A stretch of 54,061 nt of DNA, from positions 203,000 to 257,060 of the forward strand of contig JAHDWN010000002.1 of the NCBI GenBank assembly GCA_023382675.1. The letters run 5' to 3'. How positions within the stretch are numbered: the stretch's first letter is position 1; each line of letters starts with the position of its first letter. Made by a program: the position numbers and the translations under genes. The DNA is from Anaerolineae bacterium. Its GTDB lineage: Bacteria > Chloroflexota > Anaerolineae > Aggregatilineales > Phototrophicaceae. The notes under the pieces are model-generated. The model ran no database searches, was not told where the DNA came from, and saw only the letters and a program-made list of their open reading frames with translations. This document shows positions 34,059-43,657 of the stretch, in pieces.

Positions 34059-35321
34059 CTAAGGCGCGAGCGGCAGCGTGATGGTGAAGGTCGTGCCATG
34101 GTTCAGACCGGGGCTGTCCGCCCAGATGCGCCCCCCATGCGCCTGGACCAGCCCCTGGGCGATGCTCAGGCCCACGCCCAGGCCGCCGTGATGGCGCGTC
34201 ATGGGATCTTCCACCTGGTAGAACTTCTCGAAGATTCTCTCAAGCTGATCGGGTTCGAGGCCGATGCCGTTATCCTGCACACTCAGCGCCGCCTCCCGGC
34301 GGTTGTTGATTTCGCCCTTGATCGTGATCGCCCCGCCATCCGGCGTGAACCGGATCGCGTTCATCAACAGATTGCTGATCGCCATACCCATCCAGCCTCG
34401 GTCCACCGAGATGCGAATGCCCGGCACGATCTGCACATCCAGCCGGTGTCCCTTGGCATCCGCCAGTCCGCGCACATCCGCCAGTAGTTCGTAGACAAGT
34501 TCGTCCAGGAGCAGCGTCTGGCGCACAAGATCGGTTTCGTCGGTTTGCAGATAGCGCAGGTTGGTCAGGTCTTCGATGATGCGGCGCAGTTGCAAGGCAC
34601 TGCCGACCACCTTCGAGGCCAAATCATTCACCTCCGGGTTGTCGCCTTCCTGCAAGAAGCTCGCATAACCGAGGATGACGCCGAGCGGCGTCCGCAGTTC
34701 GTGCGAAGCCACTGCGATGAAATCGTTTTTGAGCTGATCCAGCTTCGCCAGTTCTTTGTTGGCTTTGCGCAGGCGGTTCACCAACTGCGCGCCATCGATT
34801 GCAACGGCTGCCTGCGCCGCCAAAATCGAGAGATAGTGCACGTCTTCGGCTGTCCAGGGCAGCTTGCGCCGGTTGATCGCTTCGAGCACGCCGATGACGC
34901 GGTTCCTGGAGGTCAAGGGCACCCCCAGCACGGAGCGCGTCTGGAAGGCGTTGCTGTCGTCGATCTTGCGGTAGTGGCGCGGGTCCTGGCGCACGTCGTT
35001 GACGACGAGCACTTTGCGCTCGCGCAGCACTGTCCCGGCGATGCTGTTATCCAGCGGCACTTCCTGGCCGATGAGACTGGCCCCGCTGCCGCCTTCCGTC
35101 GTCGTCGCCGCGAAGCGCAGTGTATTACTCTTGTGCTCTAGCAGCAGTACGGAGGCCGCTTCTGCGTTGGTGATCTCGGCGGCAATGTTCATGATCGATG
35201 CCAGCAGCGGCTGGAGCCTGATGGTGGAGTTCAGGACGGTACTGACTTCGGAAAGGCGTGTGAGAATGGCAACTTGATGTTCAAGTTCGATCAGTTGTTT
35301 CTGAGGATTCCTATGCTGCAT
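34059..35321 (-). CDS. GAF-domain sensor histidine kinase
   Basis: A 420-residue, apparently soluble kinase. A short N-terminal coiled segment is followed by a GAF domain (about 25-175, with VLGVPLTSRNRVIGVLEAIN), a coiled linker, and a HisKA domain with phospho-acceptor His207 in SHELRTPLGVILGY. The HATPase has N-box NLLMNAIRFTPDGG, G1 DNGIGL, F-box FEKFYQV and G2 GGLGVGLSIAQGLV. No response regulator gene is adjacent, so it is an orphan. The open frame reaches 35546, but the extra 75 residues look non-coding and would overlap the divergent sigma gene. ATG 35321 fits GAF kinases. Confidence 0.9.
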   Translation of the reverse strand: MQHRNPQKQLIELEHQVAILTRLSEVSTVLNSTIRLQPLLASIMNIAAEITNAEAASVLLLEHKSNTLRFAATTTEGGSGASLIGQEVPLDNSIAGTVLRERKVLVVNDVRQDPRHYRKIDDSNAFQTRSVLGVPLTSRNRVIGVLEAINRRKLPWTAEDVHYLSILAAQAAVAIDGAQLVNRLRKANKELAKLDQLKNDFIAVASHELRTPLGVILGYASFLQEGDNPEVNDLASKVVGSALQLRRIIEDLTNLRYLQTDETDLVRQTLLLDELVYELLADVRGLADAKGHRLDVQIVPGIRISVDRGWMGMAISNLLMNAIRFTPDGGAITIKGEINNRREAALSVQDNGIGLEPDQLERIFEKFYQVEDPMTRHHGGLGVGLSIAQGLVQAHGGRIWADSPGLNHGTTFTITLPLAP

Positions 35322-35485
35322 AATGCCTGATGCCTGCCTGCAACACTGATGCATTGTTAGTGTAGCATTCCCTGCCTTGCACGCACATGAAAGAAGTCTA
35401 TACACATAGAATACCCATGAGGAGGGACGCACCGCCGCATCCTGCAACTGGCTATTGAGATTCGTGAGGAAGTTGTGCGATCCTT

Positions 35486-36139
35486 GTGTATACAGCATCG
35501 AACGGCAAAGGCAATCACCATGTGGAGACAGGGCGCTTGAACTCACCGGAGCCGACTTTACAGGAAACGAGCGAGGCCCACATCGCGGCGTGTTTGCGCG
35601 GCGACCAGGCGGGGTATTCGGCGCTCTACGAGCTGTACGCGAGCGGTGTGTATCGCCTGTGCTACAACCTGCTGCTCAACCATGATGATGCCGAAGACAT
35701 CACACAGGATGCCTTTGTCTATGCCTTCAAGAGCCTGCGTCGTTACGACTCGGCCAAAGCCTCGTTCAAAACGTGGCTGTATACGATAGCGATCTGCCGC
35801 TGCCGCAATCTCTACCGGCGCAACCGGGTGCCGCTGCTGGATATTTCGTCCTTGCTGCATAACCCGCTCGCCGCGCCGAAGAGCGAATCGCCGGAAGCCG
35901 CCTTTGCCCACCGCAATGCGCGCGAAGCGCTGGAAAAGGCGCTCGGCCGGCTGCAACCGCGCCTGCGCGAGGCGCTTGTCCTGCGCTACGGCCACGGGCT
36001 GACCTACCGCGAGATCGCCGAGGTTATGGACTGCCCGGCCAAAACGGCGGAAAGCCGTGTACGGCTGGCGACCGAAGCGCTGGCCGGAATGTTGCGACCA
36101 ACGAGTGAGTATCTGCTGGAAGAGCTGTTGAGTTATTGA
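35486..36139 (+). CDS. ECF RNA polymerase sigma factor
   Basis: A sigma-70 family protein of about 200 residues. Region 2 has NHDDAEDITQDAFVYAFKSL and WLYTIAICRCRNLYRR. Region 4 has YGHGLTYREIAEVMDCPAKT and a basic recognition helix. The annotated frame opens with GTG 35486, but the first 17 residues look non-coding. GTG 35522 or TTG 35537 (after GGAG) would give the more likely start NSPEPTLQETSEAH. An anti-sigma gene follows after 68 bp, then a large envelope protein and a PBP-like protein, all codirectional. This sigma probably controls that cassette and is itself held by the anti-sigma factor. Confidence 0.9.
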   Translation: MYTASNGKGNHHVETGRLNSPEPTLQETSEAHIAACLRGDQAGYSALYELYASGVYRLCYNLLLNHDDAEDITQDAFVYAFKSLRRYDSAKASFKTWLYTIAICRCRNLYRRNRVPLLDISSLLHNPLAAPKSESPEAAFAHRNAREALEKALGRLQPRLREALVLRYGHGLTYREIAEVMDCPAKTAESRVRLATEALAGMLRPTSEYLLEELLSY

Positions 36140-36207
36140 GAGCGATGCGTGATGAACACGGGCGCACAATTCTGTTCACCCCCTCGTCATCTGAGCCTGG
36201 CGATTGA

Positions 36208-36756
36208 ATGATGAAGACCTACACCTGCCGCCGCTGCCGGGCGGACATCCCGGCCTACATCCACCGAGAGCTGCCGCCGCGCCGCCGCCGCCGTGTGCAT
36301 CTGCACCTGAATGGCTGCGCGGCCTGCTACGCGTTTTATCGCAACCTGCGCGACGTGGACGCCGAACTGCGCGCCACGATGCCGTTGATCGGCATAGCCG
36401 ACGCACCGCAGTTGGCGCAGGTCTGGCGCGGCATTCAGGCGGAGATGCGCCCACAGCGCCCCGCTTATGGGCACTGGCGGATGCGCTACAGTCTGGCGAT
36501 GGTCGTGCTCGTGCTGGCGGTCATTCTGCCCTGGCGTTTCAGCGCCGAGCAGGTGCGTGCGCTGCCGACACAGCCGACACCGCGCGTGCAAACAGACACC
36601 ACCGAAGCCATCGTCAGCCACGTCGTCGTCATGGCGACGCCGGATGCCAGCCGTGATACAGAGCCAGCGCCGCTAGCTACGAACGACGAGCGTGCCGAGA
36701 CTCCCGCCATCGTTCGCAACGATGCGCCGAAGATCATTGCAACCGATACGCCTTAA
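36208..36756 (+). CDS. Zinc-finger anti-sigma factor, membrane-anchored
   Basis: A 182-residue protein with a ZAS-type N-terminal domain. Cys7 and Cys10, then His33-x3-Cys37-x2-Cys40 (HLNGCAAC), match the HxxxCxxC zinc site of ECF anti-sigma factors. One membrane helix (about 96-111, YSLAMVVLVLAVILPW) follows, then a roughly 70-residue extracytoplasmic tail rich in Thr, Pro and Ala. It should sequester the ECF sigma factor encoded just upstream and release it on an envelope signal. It is 17 bp from the next gene. The tail has no recognised sensor domain. Confidence 0.85.
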   Translation: MMKTYTCRRCRADIPAYIHRELPPRRRRRVHLHLNGCAACYAFYRNLRDVDAELRATMPLIGIADAPQLAQVWRGIQAEMRPQRPAYGHWRMRYSLAMVVLVLAVILPWRFSAEQVRALPTQPTPRVQTDTTEAIVSHVVVMATPDASRDTEPAPLATNDERAETPAIVRNDAPKIIATDTP

Positions 36757-36773: not shown

Positions 36774-39700
36774 ATGAGTGCCATTCTGCCTTCGACCAAC
36801 CTTCGCCCAGAACCCCGCAGCGCCGCGCGCAGTGGGCTGCTCAGCGGCATCACCCTGAATTGGGAGACGGCTGCTTATATCGCCATCCTGATCCTGGCGA
36901 TCTTCACGCGCTTTTACATCCTGGGTGACCGGGTCATGAGCCATGACGAGAGCCTGCACACGCAGTTCTCGTACAACCTCTACACGACCGGCGTTTTCCA
37001 GCATACGCCGCTGATGCACGGCCCGATTCTGTTCCACGTGACGGCCTTTTTCTATTCGCTCTTCGGCGATAACGATTTTTCCGCGCGCATCTACCCTGCC
37101 ATTCTCGGCGTGATCATGACGGCAGGCTTCCCGCTGCTGTTCCGCCGCTGGTTGGGCAAGTGGGGCGCGCTCTTGCTGGCGCTCATGCTGCTGATCTCGC
37201 CGATCTGGATGTATTACAACCGCTACATTCGTGAGGACACGCCCAACATCTTCTACGCCTTCCTCATGATCTATTGTTTCTTCATGTATCTGGACGGCCC
37301 ACGGCATTTGCGCCGCAAAGCGCGCTGGCTCTATATCTGCGCCGCCGCCATGCTCTTCATGATGGGGTCGAAAGAAACCGGCTTTATCTACCTCGCCATC
37401 TTCGGCAGCTTCATGACACTCTACTGGATCGTGCGCCTCTATCAGCACATCCGCAAAGTGCCGTCGCGCTCGTTGTTCAACTTCATCGTCCTTTCGGTGC
37501 TGGTCGGCGGCACGGTTGCCGTGTTGATGTACGTCATCTTCAACATCGCGCTCCAGCCCTACCCGACGCTGACCGACCGCCTGGCCCACCTATCCTCGCA
37601 GATCAGCGTCCTGTTCAGCGGCGCGCCGATCAGCCTGGACGCAGCTTCGTTCTTCAACTGGACGCTGCTGCTGGCCGTGGTAGCGATTGCCGTGGTGGTC
37701 GCAACCGCGCTCTGGGCCTTTCGCAATGGCCTGGCGCGGGCGCGCTGGGGTGAAGTCATCGTGCTGCTGCTGTTGGCAGCGGTCGTCTGCATCGGCTTTA
37801 TTTATATCGAGGAATTGTCGTTCGAGCCTGCGCGCGCTCAGGCCACGGTTCCGGAAGCCCCCGGCGAAGCCGCGCCGGTCGAGCAAACGGCCACCACCAG
37901 CGACCTGCCGATCATCGCTGCCTGGGTCGTGGCCGGGGCTGTCATCATCGGCGTTCTGTATTCCTATCAGGCCGGATGGTGGCGCACGCTCCATCGCTTC
38001 CGCGAACTGGACATGCTCATCTTGATGGGCACACTGCTCTTGCCATGGCTGACGCCGGTCATCATCGTCATGGCGGGCGCGAACCCCAAAGACTACTCGC
38101 CCTTCGGCATCCAGCGCGCGATCCTCTCCGGCCTGCCGCTGCTGGCGATCTCAATCGTTGTCGGCGTCGTCTGGAACTGGCGACGCTGGCTGATCATCGC
38201 CGCCTGCTTCTGGATACCGTTCTTCTTCTTTTTCACGACCATGTTCACCAACCCTAACGGCATCTGGACGGGCGTGATCGGCAGCCTGGGCTACTGGCTG
38301 GGCGAGCAGGCAACCCGGCGCGGCAGCCAGCCGAACTACTACTATCAAGTCATCGTCTTACCGATGTACGAATTCCTGCCGATCATCGGCAGCATCCTGG
38401 CGATGCTGGCCGGTATGGTCGGCTTCTGGCGTATGCGCCGCCAGGAGATCGAGACGGTCGAACTGGCTGACGAGATGCAGCGCCGCGCCGTCCTGAGCGC
38501 CGAGAGCGCCCCCGCCGTCGAAGGCGATCCGCTCAAGATCGAATCGCTGCCGTTTGCGCCGACCGATGCAGACATCGTGCGCGCAGGCCAGAAACAACTC
38601 TGGCTCAAGCGCTTGCCGTTCGTGCCTTTCTTCGCCTACCTCGGCGTGCTCAACCTGATCGCGTACACGCTGGCAGGCGAGAAAATGCCCTGGCTCGGCA
38701 CGCACATGACCATCCCGATGATGTTCCTGACTGCCTGGTATTTCGGGACGATCTTCACTCACACGGATTGGTCGCGCTTCAACAAACGCGGCTGGCTCTA
38801 TCTCCTGCTGCTGCCGCTGCTCATTATCGCGGCCTTCCAGATCGTTCAGCCGTTCCTGATCGGGCGCAACATCTTCGGCCTGATGCAAACGCAGCTTTCC
38901 GAAACCGGCGCGTGGATCGCCGCTATCGTCGTCGTCGTCGTTGTCGCCTATGCCATCTGGCGCGTGCGCGCCATCACCGGCGGACTGCATCTGCGCCATA
39001 TGATCGGCGTGGCTGCCTTCGTCATGCTCGCGTTCTTGACCTTCCGCGCGGCCTGGACGGCGTCCTTCATCAATTACGACCGCGCCAACGAATTCCTGGT
39101 CTATGCCCACGGCGCGCCCGGCTGGCGCTTGATGATGGATCAGATCGAAGACATCAGCCGCCGCACGACCAACGGCATGGACATCCGTTTCGCCTGGGGT
39201 GGCAATGCCTGGCCGGCAAGCTGGTACTTCCGCCATCTGCGCTTTGCAACCTACTTCGGCCAGGATCCGTCGCCCGGCACGCTCAATGACGCCGTGGCCG
39301 TCTACGCCAGTTCCGATATACGCGGGCGCGTCGAGCCGCTGCTCGAAGATCGCTACGTGCGCTTCGACTACACGCGCATGTGGTGGCCGATGCAGGACTA
39401 CTTCAATCTCAATGCCCAGCGCGTGGATACGGTGTTCGACTTTTCCGGCAGCAACCCGGTCTCGGCGCAGCTCCGCGAGGGCCTGCTCGACATCTGGTGG
39501 TCGCGCGATTACACCGCCTACGGTCAGGCGACCGGCGGCGATTTCAGCCTGACCAACTGGCCGGTCAGCGAGACGATGTCTTTCTACGTCCGCAAAGACG
39601 TAGCCGCGCAGATCTGGTCGCTGGGCGTGGGCGATGCGCTGGCGCAGAACGCCGCCGACGCGACCGCTGTCAACCAGTGCGTCGCCAACTGGCAGCCCAC

Positions 39701-40631
39701 GGGCGCGGATCTGATCTTCCAGCAGCCCGCAGGCGGTGCGCTCAACCACCCGGTGGGTATCTCTATTGGCAATGATGGCCGCGTCTACGTCGCCGACGAG
39801 TTCGGCAACCGCGTGGCCGTCTTCAACGCGGATGGCGTGCCGGTCGCCGATTACATATCTGCCGGTGGCTCGACTGGGGCGTTCAACCGCCCGAACAGCG
39901 TCGCCGTCGCACCGGACGGCAGCATCGTTGTCGCCGATACCTGGAACTACCGCATCCAGGTACTCGACGACCAGGGCTTGCCCGTGGTCGGTTGGGGACA
40001 GGCGGGCCAGTTCGGTTACGACGCGCCCTTCCAGCCGGTCGATGCGTTCTGGGGGCCGCGCGATGTCGCCGTCGATGCCAACGGCAATATCTATGTCGCC
40101 GACACCGGCAACAAACGCATCCGTGTTTATGATGCCAACGGCAACTACCAGCGCGACATCGGCAGCGGTGGCGGTGGCCCCGGCCAGCTCAATGAGCCGA
40201 GCGGCCTCGCCATTAGCGCGGATGGGCGGCTGTTCGTCGCCGATACCTGGAACCGCCGCATCAGCGTCTTCGGTCTGGACGGCAACCCGCAGTACGATTT
40301 CCGCGTGCGCGGCTGGTACACCGACGTGGGCAACCGCCCGTACCTGGCCTTCGACGCCCAACGCAATTATCTGTACGTCAGCGATCCGGACGCCGGACGT
40401 GTACTCGTCTACACGCCTGAAGGCGACTGTGTTGGCTCATTCGGCCAGCCCGGTGATGCACCGCTCGGCAGCAACCAGTTCCAGGTCAGCGCCGGGATCG
40501 CCATCGACAGCGCGGGCAATGTCTACGTGGTCGACAGCGGCGCGAACCGCGTGCTGCGCTTCCCGCCGTTCACCCCACCGGAGTCACCAGCAGAAGGTGA
40601 AGCACCCGCAGGCGGTGAACCACAGGGATGA
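36774..40631 (+). CDS. GT-C membrane glycosyltransferase-like protein fused to an NHL beta-propeller
   Basis: A 1285-residue protein. Residues about 30-800 hold more than a dozen membrane helices. The first loop has the GT-C acidic motif SHDESLHTQFSYNL and then HGPILFHVTAFF, as in the Agl23/TIGR03663 family and GT39-like enzymes that use lipid-linked sugars. A soluble region (about 760-980) follows. Residues about 985-1265 then form a six-bladed NHL propeller, with repeats such as GRVYVADEFGNRVAVFN, GSIVVADTWNYRIQVLD, GNIYVADTGNKRIRVYD and GNVYVVDSGANRVLRF. The tail is Pro/Glu/Gly-rich. The propeller should be extracytoplasmic. It starts 17 bp after the anti-sigma gene, so it probably belongs to the ECF regulon. 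Substrate unknown. Confidence 0.85.
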   Translation: MSAILPSTNLRPEPRSAARSGLLSGITLNWETAAYIAILILAIFTRFYILGDRVMSHDESLHTQFSYNLYTTGVFQHTPLMHGPILFHVTAFFYSLFGDNDFSARIYPAILGVIMTAGFPLLFRRWLGKWGALLLALMLLISPIWMYYNRYIREDTPNIFYAFLMIYCFFMYLDGPRHLRRKARWLYICAAAMLFMMGSKETGFIYLAIFGSFMTLYWIVRLYQHIRKVPSRSLFNFIVLSVLVGGTVAVLMYVIFNIALQPYPTLTDRLAHLSSQISVLFSGAPISLDAASFFNWTLLLAVVAIAVVVATALWAFRNGLARARWGEVIVLLLLAAVVCIGFIYIEELSFEPARAQATVPEAPGEAAPVEQTATTSDLPIIAAWVVAGAVIIGVLYSYQAGWWRTLHRFRELDMLILMGTLLLPWLTPVIIVMAGANPKDYSPFGIQRAILSGLPLLAISIVVGVVWNWRRWLIIAACFWIPFFFFFTTMFTNPNGIWTGVIGSLGYWLGEQATRRGSQPNYYYQVIVLPMYEFLPIIGSILAMLAGMVGFWRMRRQEIETVELADEMQRRAVLSAESAPAVEGDPLKIESLPFAPTDADIVRAGQKQLWLKRLPFVPFFAYLGVLNLIAYTLAGEKMPWLGTHMTIPMMFLTAWYFGTIFTHTDWSRFNKRGWLYLLLLPLLIIAAFQIVQPFLIGRNIFGLMQTQLSETGAWIAAIVVVVVVAYAIWRVRAITGGLHLRHMIGVAAFVMLAFLTFRAAWTASFINYDRANEFLVYAHGAPGWRLMMDQIEDISRRTTNGMDIRFAWGGNAWPASWYFRHLRFATYFGQDPSPGTLNDAVAVYASSDIRGRVEPLLEDRYVRFDYTRMWWPMQDYFNLNAQRVDTVFDFSGSNPVSAQLREGLLDIWWSRDYTAYGQATGGDFSLTNWPVSETMSFYVRKDVAAQIWSLGVGDALAQNAADATAVNQCVANWQPTGADLIFQQPAGGALNHPVGISIGNDGRVYVADEFGNRVAVFNADGVPVADYISAGGSTGAFNRPNSVAVAPDGSIVVADTWNYRIQVLDDQGLPVVGWGQAGQFGYDAPFQPVDAFWGPRDVAVDANGNIYVADTGNKRIRVYDANGNYQRDIGSGGGGPGQLNEPSGLAISADGRLFVADTWNRRISVFGLDGNPQYDFRVRGWYTDVGNRPYLAFDAQRNYLYVSDPDAGRVLVYTPEGDCVGSFGQPGDAPLGSNQFQVSAGIAIDSAGNVYVVDSGANRVLRFPPFTPPESPAEGEAPAGGEPQG

Positions 40632-40667: not shown

Positions 40668-40711
40668 TACGATACCCTCTCCCTGCGCCGCGATTGTGAG
40701 GTAGACGAATC

Positions 40712-43657
40712 TTGGCGACGATCTCACAGGTGGTGCGCAGGCATCGCAAACGAATCGAACGCAAGCGCGCGCAGGATGCGCGCAGGCAAACCTGGACGTA
40801 TGTGCTCGTCGGGCTGTTCGGCCTGTTCATCGCCCTGCCGCTGCTGGCGATGATGGGCACGACGATCTTCTTCTACAGCCGCGCCGTCCAGGATCTGCCG
40901 ACACCAGCGGATACCTTCGCGCGCGAGTCGCGCAGTGGCATCACTGAACTGTACGACCGCAGCGGATCGACTCTGCTCTATCAGGTGCGCGATCCGCTCG
41001 GCGATCAGCGCACGGTGATCTCGCTCGATTCGCTGCCGCCTTACGTGCTCGCGGCGACCCTGCAAACCGAAGACCCGGACTTCCTGACGGCGACGCGCTT
41101 CAACCCGCTGGTACTTTTCCTACGCATGTGGGATCACATCCTGTTCGAGGCGCTGCCGCCCGATCCATCGCTGACCGGACGGCTGGTGCGCAATGTCATC
41201 CTGCCGCAGACAGAGCGCGTCAGCAACGATGATCGCTTGCGCGAACTCATCCTTGTCGCCGAGATCAACCGCCGCTATGCGCCACTCGAAATCCTGGAGT
41301 GGCATCTCAACACCAATTACTACGGCAACGAAGCCTATGGCATCGAAGCCGCGGCCCAGATCTACCTGGGCAAGTCCGCCGTCAGCCTGACACTGGACGA
41401 GGCCGCGCTCCTGGCGGCGATCCCGACCGCGCCGCAGTACAACCCGTTCGATAACCGGGTGGCGGCGCAGGGGCGGCAGCAGGACTTGCTGCGCGCGCTG
41501 TTCAACAACGGCCAGATCACCCGCGCCGATTACGACACCGCCGTCGGCACCGTCACGGCGGTGCGCCCGTCGAGCGGCCTGACGCCGCAGGTCGCGCCGG
41601 AGTATGCGCTGTATGCACGCGGCCAGGCGGAAGACATCCTCGACAGCCTGGGCCGTGACGGCGCGCAGTTGGTGGCACGCGGTGGGCTGCGCATCACGAC
41701 CGCGCTCGATCTCGATCTGTACCAGCAGGCAGACTGCGTTCTGACGGGCTATCTGCGCCATGTGCGCGGCGAGCAGGCGACTGCCAGCGCCGTGCCCTGC
41801 CCGGCCTACGCGCTCGTGCCCAACGTGGCGCTGACCGGCAATACGCCGCCGGATACCGGCGCGGTGGTCGTCATTGACGTGAAGACGGGCGAACTGCGCG
41901 CGATTGTCGGCGATGCGCGCGCCGCCGCGCACCAGCCAGGGCCGACGCTCCAGCCGTTCGTCTATCTCCAGGCCTTTCTCGGCGGCTACAACCCGGCGTC
42001 GATGGTGCTCGACATCCCGACGCGGCTGCCCGGCGCACAGGAAGGTCTGATCTACACGCCGACCAACCCCGATGGCTCCTTCCGCGGCCCGATGAACCTG
42101 CGCGATGCCATGAGCGCGGGCTTACTCCCGCCCGCCGCGCAGGTTGCGCAGGAACAGGGCATGTTCCGCATCATCCGCTTGGCGCACCAGATGGGCATCA
42201 CCAGCCTGGACGACACGGCGCAGGTGCTGCTGCTGGATCAGGGCGGCGGCGTCTCGGTGCTGGACATGACCTATGCCTACTCGGTCTTCGCCTCGTTGGG
42301 GCAGATGCGCGGCATACCAACCGAGCCGGTCGGGCGCGGCTTCCGCGTGCGCGACCCGGTCGCGGTACTCAAGATCGAAGCGCCGGACGGCGAAGTTCTC
42401 TGGCAGTACGATCAGGCGCAGGTAGCGACGAATCAGATCACGATCCCGGAGCGCGGCCTGGCTTATCTGGTCAACGACATCCTGGCCGACCAGGGCACGC
42501 GCTGGCGTGTCATCGGCCAGGGCACGCCGCTCGATCTGTCGCGGCCGGGCGCGGTCGTCAACGGCGTCGCCGGCGATCCGGAGCGCGGTGGCCAGGGCGA
42601 TGACTGGACGGTCGGTTACACGCCCGATTACGTCGTCGGCGTCGTCATGAACCGCAGCGACGGACAGTCGATGACGCTCGACCCGTTCGGGCTGGAGGGC
42701 GCTGCACCCGTCTGGCGCGGGATCATGGAGTACGTCCACACACGCGACGAACTCCCGGCCTCGCGCTGGGAGCGCCCGTTCAATATCGTCGAGGCGGCTG
42801 TGTGCGAGCGCTCTGGCCTGCTGCCGAATGGCGTCTGCCCACCGCGCACGGAGATCTTCCTCGACGGGATGCAAACCGCGCTGCGCCGCGACACCTACTG
42901 GCAGGCAGTGGACATCAACAGCCGCACGCGCCAGCTGGCCACGGTCAACACGCCCGCCGAGCTGCGCAGCCAGCAGGTCTATTTCATCCCGCCGGATGCC
43001 GCGCTCGATTGGTGGCGCGCCAACAATCAGCCGCTGCCGCCGGAAGAATTCGACAGCGTCAGCCGCCCGGAGATCCTCTCGACCGCGCAGATCCTCGCCC
43101 CGGCGCAGTTCGATCAGGTGGGCGGCGTCGTTCAGGTGCGCGGCAGCATTGACGCGCCGAACATCCAGTCGTACCAGCTTGCTTACGGCGAAGGCCGCAA
43201 CCCCACCGCCTGGATCGACATTGGCGAGGCGCAGGCGGTCGTCCCGCCCGGCGGAGTGCTCGGCGAATGGGACACGCGCGGGCTGAACGGCATCTACAGC
43301 TTGCTGCTGACGGTCGTCATGCAGAATGGCACCAGCGAGTCGCAGGCTGTCCAGGTCAGCGTCGATAATACGCCGCCGACGGTCGAACTGCGCGCGGGCG
43401 AACCGGGTCAGATCTTCCGCTTCCCTGGCGACCGCGTCATCAACCTGGAGGCGATTGCCGTCGATAACCTCGCTATGCGCAGCGTCGAGTTCTACGCAGA
43501 CGGCGAATTCATCGGCACGGCGGAGCAGTATCCATTCGGCTTTAGCTGGAATGTGACCGGCGTCGGCGACGTGACGTTTACAGCCATCGCCTACGATCAG
43601 GTCGGCAACAGCGCGACCGCCGAGCTTGCCGTTCAGGTCGTCCGGTCCGGGTCGTAG
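40712..43657 (+). CDS. Class A PBP-like protein with inactivated transpeptidase (pseudo-PBP) and C-terminal Ig-like domain
   Basis: A 981-residue protein: cytoplasmic basic N-terminus, one membrane helix (29-55), GT51-like lobe (about 75-285), transpeptidase-like domain (about 375-690), then a Pro-rich stretch and an Ig-like domain (about 885-980). The GT51 C-lobe is well kept (EWHLNTNYYGNEAYGIEAAA), with Glu120 and Glu178 retained, but the His-x-Gly after the first Glu and the TQQLxKN motif (now SLTGRLVRN) are changed. In the transpeptidase the SxxK motif reads PTLQ (411-414), SxN is not recognisable, and KTG reads VAG (619-621), while the flanking WTVGYTPDYVVGVV is intact. Penicillin binding and crosslinking are therefore unlikely. 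TTG start with GAGG ten bases upstream. Confidence 0.85.
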   Translation: MATISQVVRRHRKRIERKRAQDARRQTWTYVLVGLFGLFIALPLLAMMGTTIFFYSRAVQDLPTPADTFARESRSGITELYDRSGSTLLYQVRDPLGDQRTVISLDSLPPYVLAATLQTEDPDFLTATRFNPLVLFLRMWDHILFEALPPDPSLTGRLVRNVILPQTERVSNDDRLRELILVAEINRRYAPLEILEWHLNTNYYGNEAYGIEAAAQIYLGKSAVSLTLDEAALLAAIPTAPQYNPFDNRVAAQGRQQDLLRALFNNGQITRADYDTAVGTVTAVRPSSGLTPQVAPEYALYARGQAEDILDSLGRDGAQLVARGGLRITTALDLDLYQQADCVLTGYLRHVRGEQATASAVPCPAYALVPNVALTGNTPPDTGAVVVIDVKTGELRAIVGDARAAAHQPGPTLQPFVYLQAFLGGYNPASMVLDIPTRLPGAQEGLIYTPTNPDGSFRGPMNLRDAMSAGLLPPAAQVAQEQGMFRIIRLAHQMGITSLDDTAQVLLLDQGGGVSVLDMTYAYSVFASLGQMRGIPTEPVGRGFRVRDPVAVLKIEAPDGEVLWQYDQAQVATNQITIPERGLAYLVNDILADQGTRWRVIGQGTPLDLSRPGAVVNGVAGDPERGGQGDDWTVGYTPDYVVGVVMNRSDGQSMTLDPFGLEGAAPVWRGIMEYVHTRDELPASRWERPFNIVEAAVCERSGLLPNGVCPPRTEIFLDGMQTALRRDTYWQAVDINSRTRQLATVNTPAELRSQQVYFIPPDAALDWWRANNQPLPPEEFDSVSRPEILSTAQILAPAQFDQVGGVVQVRGSIDAPNIQSYQLAYGEGRNPTAWIDIGEAQAVVPPGGVLGEWDTRGLNGIYSLLLTVVMQNGTSESQAVQVSVDNTPPTVELRAGEPGQIFRFPGDRVINLEAIAVDNLAMRSVEFYADGEFIGTAEQYPFGFSWNVTGVGDVTFTAIAYDQVGNSATAELAVQVVRSGS

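Follow-up and report, generated by a model that had tools for sequence, protein, structure and literature searches.

This work concerns a gene for a homologue of the class A penicillin-binding proteins (PBPs) on a stretch of 54,061 nucleotides from contig JAHDWN010000002.1 of an Anaerolineae bacterium (assembly GCA_023382675.1), the whole of which is called the window here. The transpeptidase of the encoded 981-residue protein appears to be dead, the loss of its motifs is fixed across the window's family as judged by alignment, and substitution rates indicate purifying selection on its frame and fold. The explanation that we favor, with a confidence about evenly divided between belief and doubt, is that this pseudo-PBP is a transpeptidase pseudoenzyme that has been retained as a non-catalytic scaffold or regulator of the envelope, with a glycosyltransferase family 51 (GT51) head that may still bind a lipid-linked glycan.

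Loss of the transpeptidase motifs

The transpeptidase of class A PBPs carries the motifs SxxK, SxN, and KTG, as defined in PMC4810414. In an alignment of the window protein with live relatives and a solved PBP1A, the segment QPG-SxxK-PF is found as QPG-PTLQ-PF, the SxN site reads G-L-L (S470G, N472L), and the KTG column falls on V616-N617-G618, a placement with which the profile alignment to the solved PBP1A agrees. An earlier note, made from the window's sequence, had already described the PTLQ at 411-414, the loss of SxN, and the change of the GT51 motif TQQL to TGRL, all of which stand in this alignment. It had also reported that KTG became VAG; the loss is confirmed, but the aligned triplet is VNG (616-618), and VAG is the next one, three residues on.

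Displaced but intact motifs, which that note had named as a possible refutation, were looked for by pattern search in the window protein, in the aligned transpeptidase region of the 41 family rows described below, and in seven other dead rows. No SxxK pattern occurs anywhere in the window protein. Its only KTG, at 391-393, precedes the SxxK position and was rejected as a displaced motif, given that this strand reads D..TGE in the consensus of the live rows too; the KTG of the relative L006 is likewise this conserved strand. SxxK strings are present in L016, L086, and L087 and were not placed singly, and columns 411 and 414 are without Ser or Lys in every family row. L088 has a KTG string in the aligned transpeptidase region, the position of which was not placed. 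The transpeptidase of the window protein is thus predicted to be dead, as the earlier note had proposed.

Sixty-one genomes were searched with the window protein: of 37 from the window's family (f1; the labels f4, f34, and f42 stand for other families, and L and G numbers for loci and genomes), 35 gave an orthologue, full-length or partial, as did 23 of 24 from other families of the same order. The near-full-length f1 rows number 41, namely the window protein, 32 rows from the searched genomes, and eight named records. Ser411, Lys414, Ser470, Lys616, and Thr617 are each retained in 0/41 of these rows, Asn472 in 1/41, and the Gly of KTG in 38/41. Because the same losses are seen in all 41 rows, 40 of them from other genomes, they go beyond chance or sequencing error, and they indicate that the substitutions are fixed in the relatives, which is an outcome of an orthologue search that the earlier note had named as support for its reading. 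Two partial rows lie outside this set, one with Asp at position 120 and a dead transpeptidase (L036) and one that covers only the N-terminal part and has Glu at 120 (L062). Among the matches listed, the named relatives are Chloroflexota Anaerolineae, for example isolate SJ143 (91 percent identity) and OLB13.

Outside f1 and f4, all three motifs are intact in 18 of 19 orthologue rows of the order; in L058, the exception, the frame is interrupted ahead of KTG, and two of the rows (L059 and L061) are partial. The four rows of family f4 make up a second dead group, whose state is intermediate: Lys414 is replaced by Arg in 4/4, KTG and TQQL are lost, and Ser411 is still present in three.

In a tree of 87 chosen proteins, the orthologues (77 rows) form one clade against the paralogues, with a support of 100 in the Shimodaira-Hasegawa-like approximate likelihood ratio test (SH-aLRT). 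The window protein lies inside this clade with live orthologues, which bears out its common descent with live class A PBPs. Within it, f1 forms a clade (100) to which f4 is sister (99), both on long branches. The wider sample came from 396 genomes of the class searched with a distant dead relative and is biased, the query being a dead protein; of 70 loci fetched, two were 100-base fillers, and of the 68 classified, 13 are dead (Ser411, Lys414, or Lys616 changed) and the rest live where readable. A second tree was made from 91 chosen rows with the motif columns excluded, as a quick search with SH-aLRT support only. Its starred branches force at least four changes of motif state: f1 and f4 together (counted once, whether or not they share one loss), G404 in f34 (L231), a clade of ten in f42, and the near-identical L108 and L179, counted once, within the live f42 rows. 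A single origin of all dead rows was considered and is incompatible with these branches. The count alone cannot tell losses from gains, and the changes are read as losses because the outgroup is live. On this reading, the orthologue appears to have lost its motifs at least four times.

Six f42 rows (L174, L175, L184, L187, L188, and L209) form an eroded series in which the nucleophile Ser is replaced by Thr. The Lys is still present beside this change in L175, and KTG is intact in L187; the series may be a natural record of the order of loss.

Constraint on the fold and on the GT51 domain

Constraint was estimated as pairwise Nei-Gojobori ratios of nonsynonymous to synonymous substitution rates (dN/dS), with dS above 1 in several pairs. 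Between the window gene and that of L006, which is of the same genus (91 percent identity), dN/dS is 0.045 in GT51, 0.092 in the transpeptidase region, and 0.046 in the C-terminal region; a live class A paralogue of the same two genomes (L001-L072) gives 0.135 in GT51 and 0.121 in the transpeptidase. The second dead pair, L019-L023, gives 0.059 and 0.042, and the live orthologue pair L039-L045 0.092 and 0.111. The dead protein is therefore constrained within the range of live ones. Frames of at least 900 codons are found in 33 of the 35 f1 genomes that have the gene, and the remaining two are cut by contig ends. Taken together, these values argue that the frame and fold of the f1 protein are under purifying selection.

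The AlphaFold2 model of the window protein (mean predicted local distance difference test score, pLDDT, 86.9) matches PBP1A 4oon with Z 34.5 and a root-mean-square deviation (rmsd) of 3.0 over 376 residues, and PonA1 5crf with Z 32.6 and rmsd 2.3 over 333 residues. The fold is accordingly modelled as that of a class A PBP, with the transpeptidase fold after GT51 retained; the earlier note's claim of a kept fold and a selected frame is upheld by the model and by the dN/dS values. Residues 690-981 modelled alone (pLDDT 90.0) give two domains like immunoglobulin (Ig) or fibronectin type III (Fn3) domains. Because live orthologues align across the same C-terminal region, these domains are ancestral and were not added by the pseudo-PBP, contrary to what had been suggested. 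They have the same fold as the Fn3-like modules of Clostridium thermocellum CbhA (3pdd, 3pdg, and 3pe9; Z 14.6, rmsd 4.7, 176 residues for 3pdd and Z 13.3, rmsd 2.0, 90 residues for 3pdg) and as the CelAly B1 domain 9kvu (Z 14.4, rmsd 1.5, 92 residues). These domains belong to other enzymes, and the common fold says nothing on function.

The constraint is distributed unevenly along the protein. Among positions that are fixed at 90 percent in 45 live rows, those kept by f1 at the same level are 3/11 in the N-terminal part, 2/27 in the N-terminal half of GT51 (residues 98-194), 20/28 in its C-terminal half, 5/12 in the linker, 33/88 in the transpeptidase, and 26/43 in the C-terminal region. The two kept in the GT51 N-terminal half are E120 (40/41) and E178 (38/41), the best retained of the 27, and both are present in the window protein; we take E178 to be the glutamate of GT51 motif 3. 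From the shared motif, E120 would be the equivalent of the motif-1 catalytic glutamate of E. coli. PMC4632607 gives E94 of E. coli PBP1A and E233 of PBP1B as the key catalytic glutamate. The motifs TQQL and RK..E are gone, with TGRL in place of the former, Q156 and K175 in 0/41, and Q157 in 2/41, and near-fixed new residues stand in this domain (Q156G 0.83, Q157R 0.83, K160R 0.93, and Y198H 0.83) and in the former transpeptidase region, such as L509E, G510R, and N648R. Mean identity in the GT51 N-terminal half is 0.41 in f1 versus 0.63 in the live rows of the order, and in the transpeptidase 0.50 versus 0.60; in the C-terminal modules it is slightly higher in f1 (0.51, 0.45, and 0.45 versus 0.45, 0.43, and 0.39), all of these being rough comparisons between groups of different age. 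Given that E120 and E178 are kept and most other live-fixed positions of the N-terminal half are lost, the GT51 domain of f1 seems to have been rebuilt around its glutamates, and since these are the best retained positions, some GT51 function may remain. The domain is for this reason described as remodelled rather than clearly dead, and of the earlier note's claim of a remodelled site with catalysis removed only the first part is retained.

This pattern raises the alternative that the protein is a working glycosyltransferase with an altered site, which would polymerize or transfer a lipid-linked sugar with a new specificity by means of E120, E178, and the newly fixed R157, R160, and H198. We consider this rather unlikely. 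It would account for the two glutamates, for the new residues near fixation, and for the low GT51 dN/dS of the pair of the window and L006, and the fold does not require the glutamates, given that each is found in only 3/11 dead f42 rows from independent losses. However, Q156, R137, N127, K160, and K175 are in 0/41, most other live-fixed positions of the N-terminal half are lost, and its identity is low in f1. In the sister dead family f4, E120 is present in 4/4 but E178 is replaced by Asp in 4/4, and Asp stands at 120 in L060 as well as in the uncounted partial row L036.

Genome context and the proposed role

The window genome has three other GT51 genes, all with SxxK and KTG, eight genes with a transpeptidase domain above the Pfam cut-off, the pseudo-PBP not being among these, and three genes of the SEDS (shape, elongation, division, and sporulation) family. 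Wall synthesis therefore need not depend on the chemistry of the pseudo-PBP.

Among relatives, an OmpR-type response regulator lies divergent to the PBP gene, at 0.1-0.5 kb, in 15 of the 29 f1 genomes with both genes, and two further f1 genomes have it at about 8-11 kb. The same divergent arrangement is found next to a live PBP in four of the seven regulator-bearing genomes from the order's other families, which suggests that the pairing predates the motif loss. These adjacencies were counted by hand, with orthology set at 300 bits or more in f1 and 200 or more elsewhere, and G056 (partial, at a contig end) and G030 (weak) were excluded. The regulator is often followed by a histidine kinase and the PBP gene, in some cases, by a regulator of the DtxR type. 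The divergent arrangement would fit a receptor or sensor of a two-component pathway, in which binding of lipid II or wall fragments by the protein would be signalled to the kinase and the OmpR-type regulator. The earlier note had offered scaffold or sensor as roles; a scaffold is consistent with the evidence and is the leading reading, and the sensor draws indirect support from the regulator in relatives. We regard the sensor as quite improbable, since the regulator of the window genome is on a separate contig (C37), the single linked kinase scanned has only HisKA and HATPase_c domains and no obvious periplasmic sensor, and the linkage is found with live PBPs too and may mean only shared regulation. 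BlaR1/MecR1-type beta-lactam sensors have an acylatable Ser in a PBP-fold domain, and the window protein, lacking SxxK, differs from them in this respect.

In the scaffold reading, the gene product descends from a bifunctional class A PBP and would be an extracytoplasmic protein anchored in the membrane, its transpeptidase site erased and its fold, the GT51 C-terminal half, and the Ig-like module kept under purifying selection. It would not cross-link but would serve envelope synthesis as a structural or allosteric partner, pairing with or positioning live class A PBPs or complexes of SEDS proteins and class B PBPs. Stimulation of a class A enzyme by dimerization is described for E. coli PBP1B in PMC4632607. 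The GT51 head, rebuilt around two glutamates, may have kept the ability to bind a nascent strand or lipid II, and the Ig-like module may bind wall glycan. Given that the motifs were lost repeatedly in the same orthologue, the non-catalytic role would predate the losses; it would have been present already in the live ancestor and have been enough once catalysis was redundant.

Several observations weigh against this reading. A pure scaffold would not need the selective retention of E120 and E178. The orthologue was not found in two of the 37 f1 genomes (G025 and G034), which had paralogues only. The wider dead pair of the window and L007 is looser (dN/dS 0.18 in GT51 and 0.17 in the transpeptidase), and the live orthologue pair L046-L050 is tighter (0.015 and 0.030). 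Dead f42 rows are less constrained, with 0.27 and 0.38 in two distant pairs versus 0.09 and 0.10 in two close live pairs used for comparison, and identity in the f42 GT51 C-terminal half is 0.84 among live and 0.54 among dead rows; the dead f42 lineage may therefore be partly decaying. Lastly, among the examined loci, many of which have short flanks, the window's own neighbors are common only to the closest relative.

The missing orthologues, the fast divergence of the GT51 N-terminal half, and the weaker constraint in f42 could also be taken as signs of a gene on its way to loss. For f1 this is highly improbable and already largely refuted by the long frames, by dN/dS values of about 0.1 in close pairs, and by the fixation of new residues at old sites. 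A further version, which we hold to be unlikely, unites the scaffold with a transferase of new specificity: the orthologue's non-enzymatic envelope function would be older than the losses, so that its catalysis was stripped away repeatedly, and the f1 GT51 would have been re-tooled around its two glutamates for a different lipid-linked glycan.

Gene layout and comparison with known systems

As the earlier note had stated, the 981-codon frame is uninterrupted; its features are collected in Table 1. Ten bases ahead of the TTG start stands a GAGG, and R10, R14, and R17 of the basic tail are nearly invariant in the orthologue alignment. The transpeptidase match of the window protein in Pfam reaches 14.3 bits, under the cut-off of 22.1, and its best NCBIfam model, the PBP1A family TIGR02074, gives 258.8 bits, below the cut-off of 508.75.

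Table 1. Positions of the pseudo-PBP gene and its parts in the window.
Feature	Residues	Window positions	Strand	Basis
GAGG, ribosome-binding-site-like, upstream of the TTG start		40698..40701	+	read in sequence
Pseudo-class A PBP gene, TTG start, 981 codons and stop	1-981	40712..43657	+	frame; most orthologues have M, V, or L in the start column
Basic cytoplasmic tail and membrane helix (one modelled helix, 4-60)	1-60	40712..40891	+	model
GT51 domain	98-262	41003..41497	+	Pfam PF00912, 93.1 bits, cut-off 27
Catalytic-type Glu of GT51 motif 1 (predicted)	E120	41069..41071	+	alignment
TGRL replacing TQQL	155-158	41174..41185	+	alignment
Presumed GT51 motif-3 Glu	E178	41243..41245	+	alignment
GT51 C-terminal half	195-262	41294..41497	+	mean identity 0.69 in f1 and 0.69 among live rows of the order
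Transpeptidase-fold domain, predicted dead	380-680	41849..42751	+	Pfam sub-threshold match, structural model
Former SxxK site, P-T-L-Q	411-414	41942..41953	+	alignment, profile alignment to solved PBP1A
Former SxN site, G-L-L	470-472	42119..42127	+	alignment
Former KTG site, V-N-G	616-618	42557..42565	+	alignment, profile alignment to solved PBP1A
Post-transpeptidase module, with C698 and C709	681-789	42752..43078	+	alignment
First Ig/Fn3-like domain	790-885	43079..43366	+	models, fold matches
Second Ig/Fn3-like domain (Pfam Big_7 at 889-957)	886-981	43367..43654	+	Pfam, model, fold matches

Two cysteine pairs are possibly disulfides: 342/363 (window 41735-41737 and 41798-41800), present in 40/41 family rows and 25/29 live rows, and 698/709 (42803-42805 and 42836-42838), present in 41/41 and 26/29.

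Directly upstream of the gene, at 36774-40631 (+), lies the gene for a protein of 1285 residues that has a PMT_2 glycosyltransferase domain and, at its C-terminus, NHL repeats; a 667-codon frame antisense to it (38358-40361, -) is probably just a shadow of the GC-rich coding sequence. Further upstream and in the same direction lie genes for a Sigma-70 factor of the extracytoplasmic function (ECF)-like type and then a zf-HC2 (anti-sigma-like) protein (35486-36756, +). The GAF-domain histidine kinase at 34059-35546 (-) is, from its best BLAST match, apparently not the PBP-linked kinase of relatives. An operon with the sigma factor, zf-HC2, PMT/NHL, and alpha/beta hydrolase genes was considered and set aside, the linkage being found, among the loci examined, only in the closest relative, L075.

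Class A PBPs are usually regarded as enzymes, and a full-length member whose transpeptidase is dead throughout a family amounts to a natural separation-of-function experiment. The conserved surfaces of the dead versions would mark a role apart from catalysis, at which laboratory mutants of other PBPs only hint, and would make that role directly testable; repeated loss in the same way in related bacteria points to an unrecognized non-enzymatic job. The case also cautions that a protein called 'penicillin-binding' need not bind penicillin. The literature searched, from which most subscription journals are absent, yielded no account of a natural class A PBP that is dead across a family.

The pseudo-PBP shares with the bifunctional class A PBPs (PBP1A/PBP1B; TIGR02074, PF00912 with PF00905) the domain order, the membrane anchor, both folds, and the GT51 glutamates, and differs from them in having no SxxK, SxN, or KTG and in the replacement of the GT51 motifs TQQL and RK. 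Bacillus subtilis PBP 2B and Clostridioides difficile PBP3 are class B proteins without GT51. PMC5656894 (on PBP 2B mutated in its catalytic site) and PMC12539705 (on PBP3) likewise describe structural or regulatory roles for which catalysis is not required, but there catalysis was removed in the laboratory, unlike the natural loss in the pseudo-PBP. The live orthologues of the order's other families, for example L039, L043, and L046, belong to the same clade and have a similar length and the same C-terminal region, with divergent response regulators nearby in these three; unlike the pseudo-PBP, they have all three transpeptidase motifs and TQQL intact.

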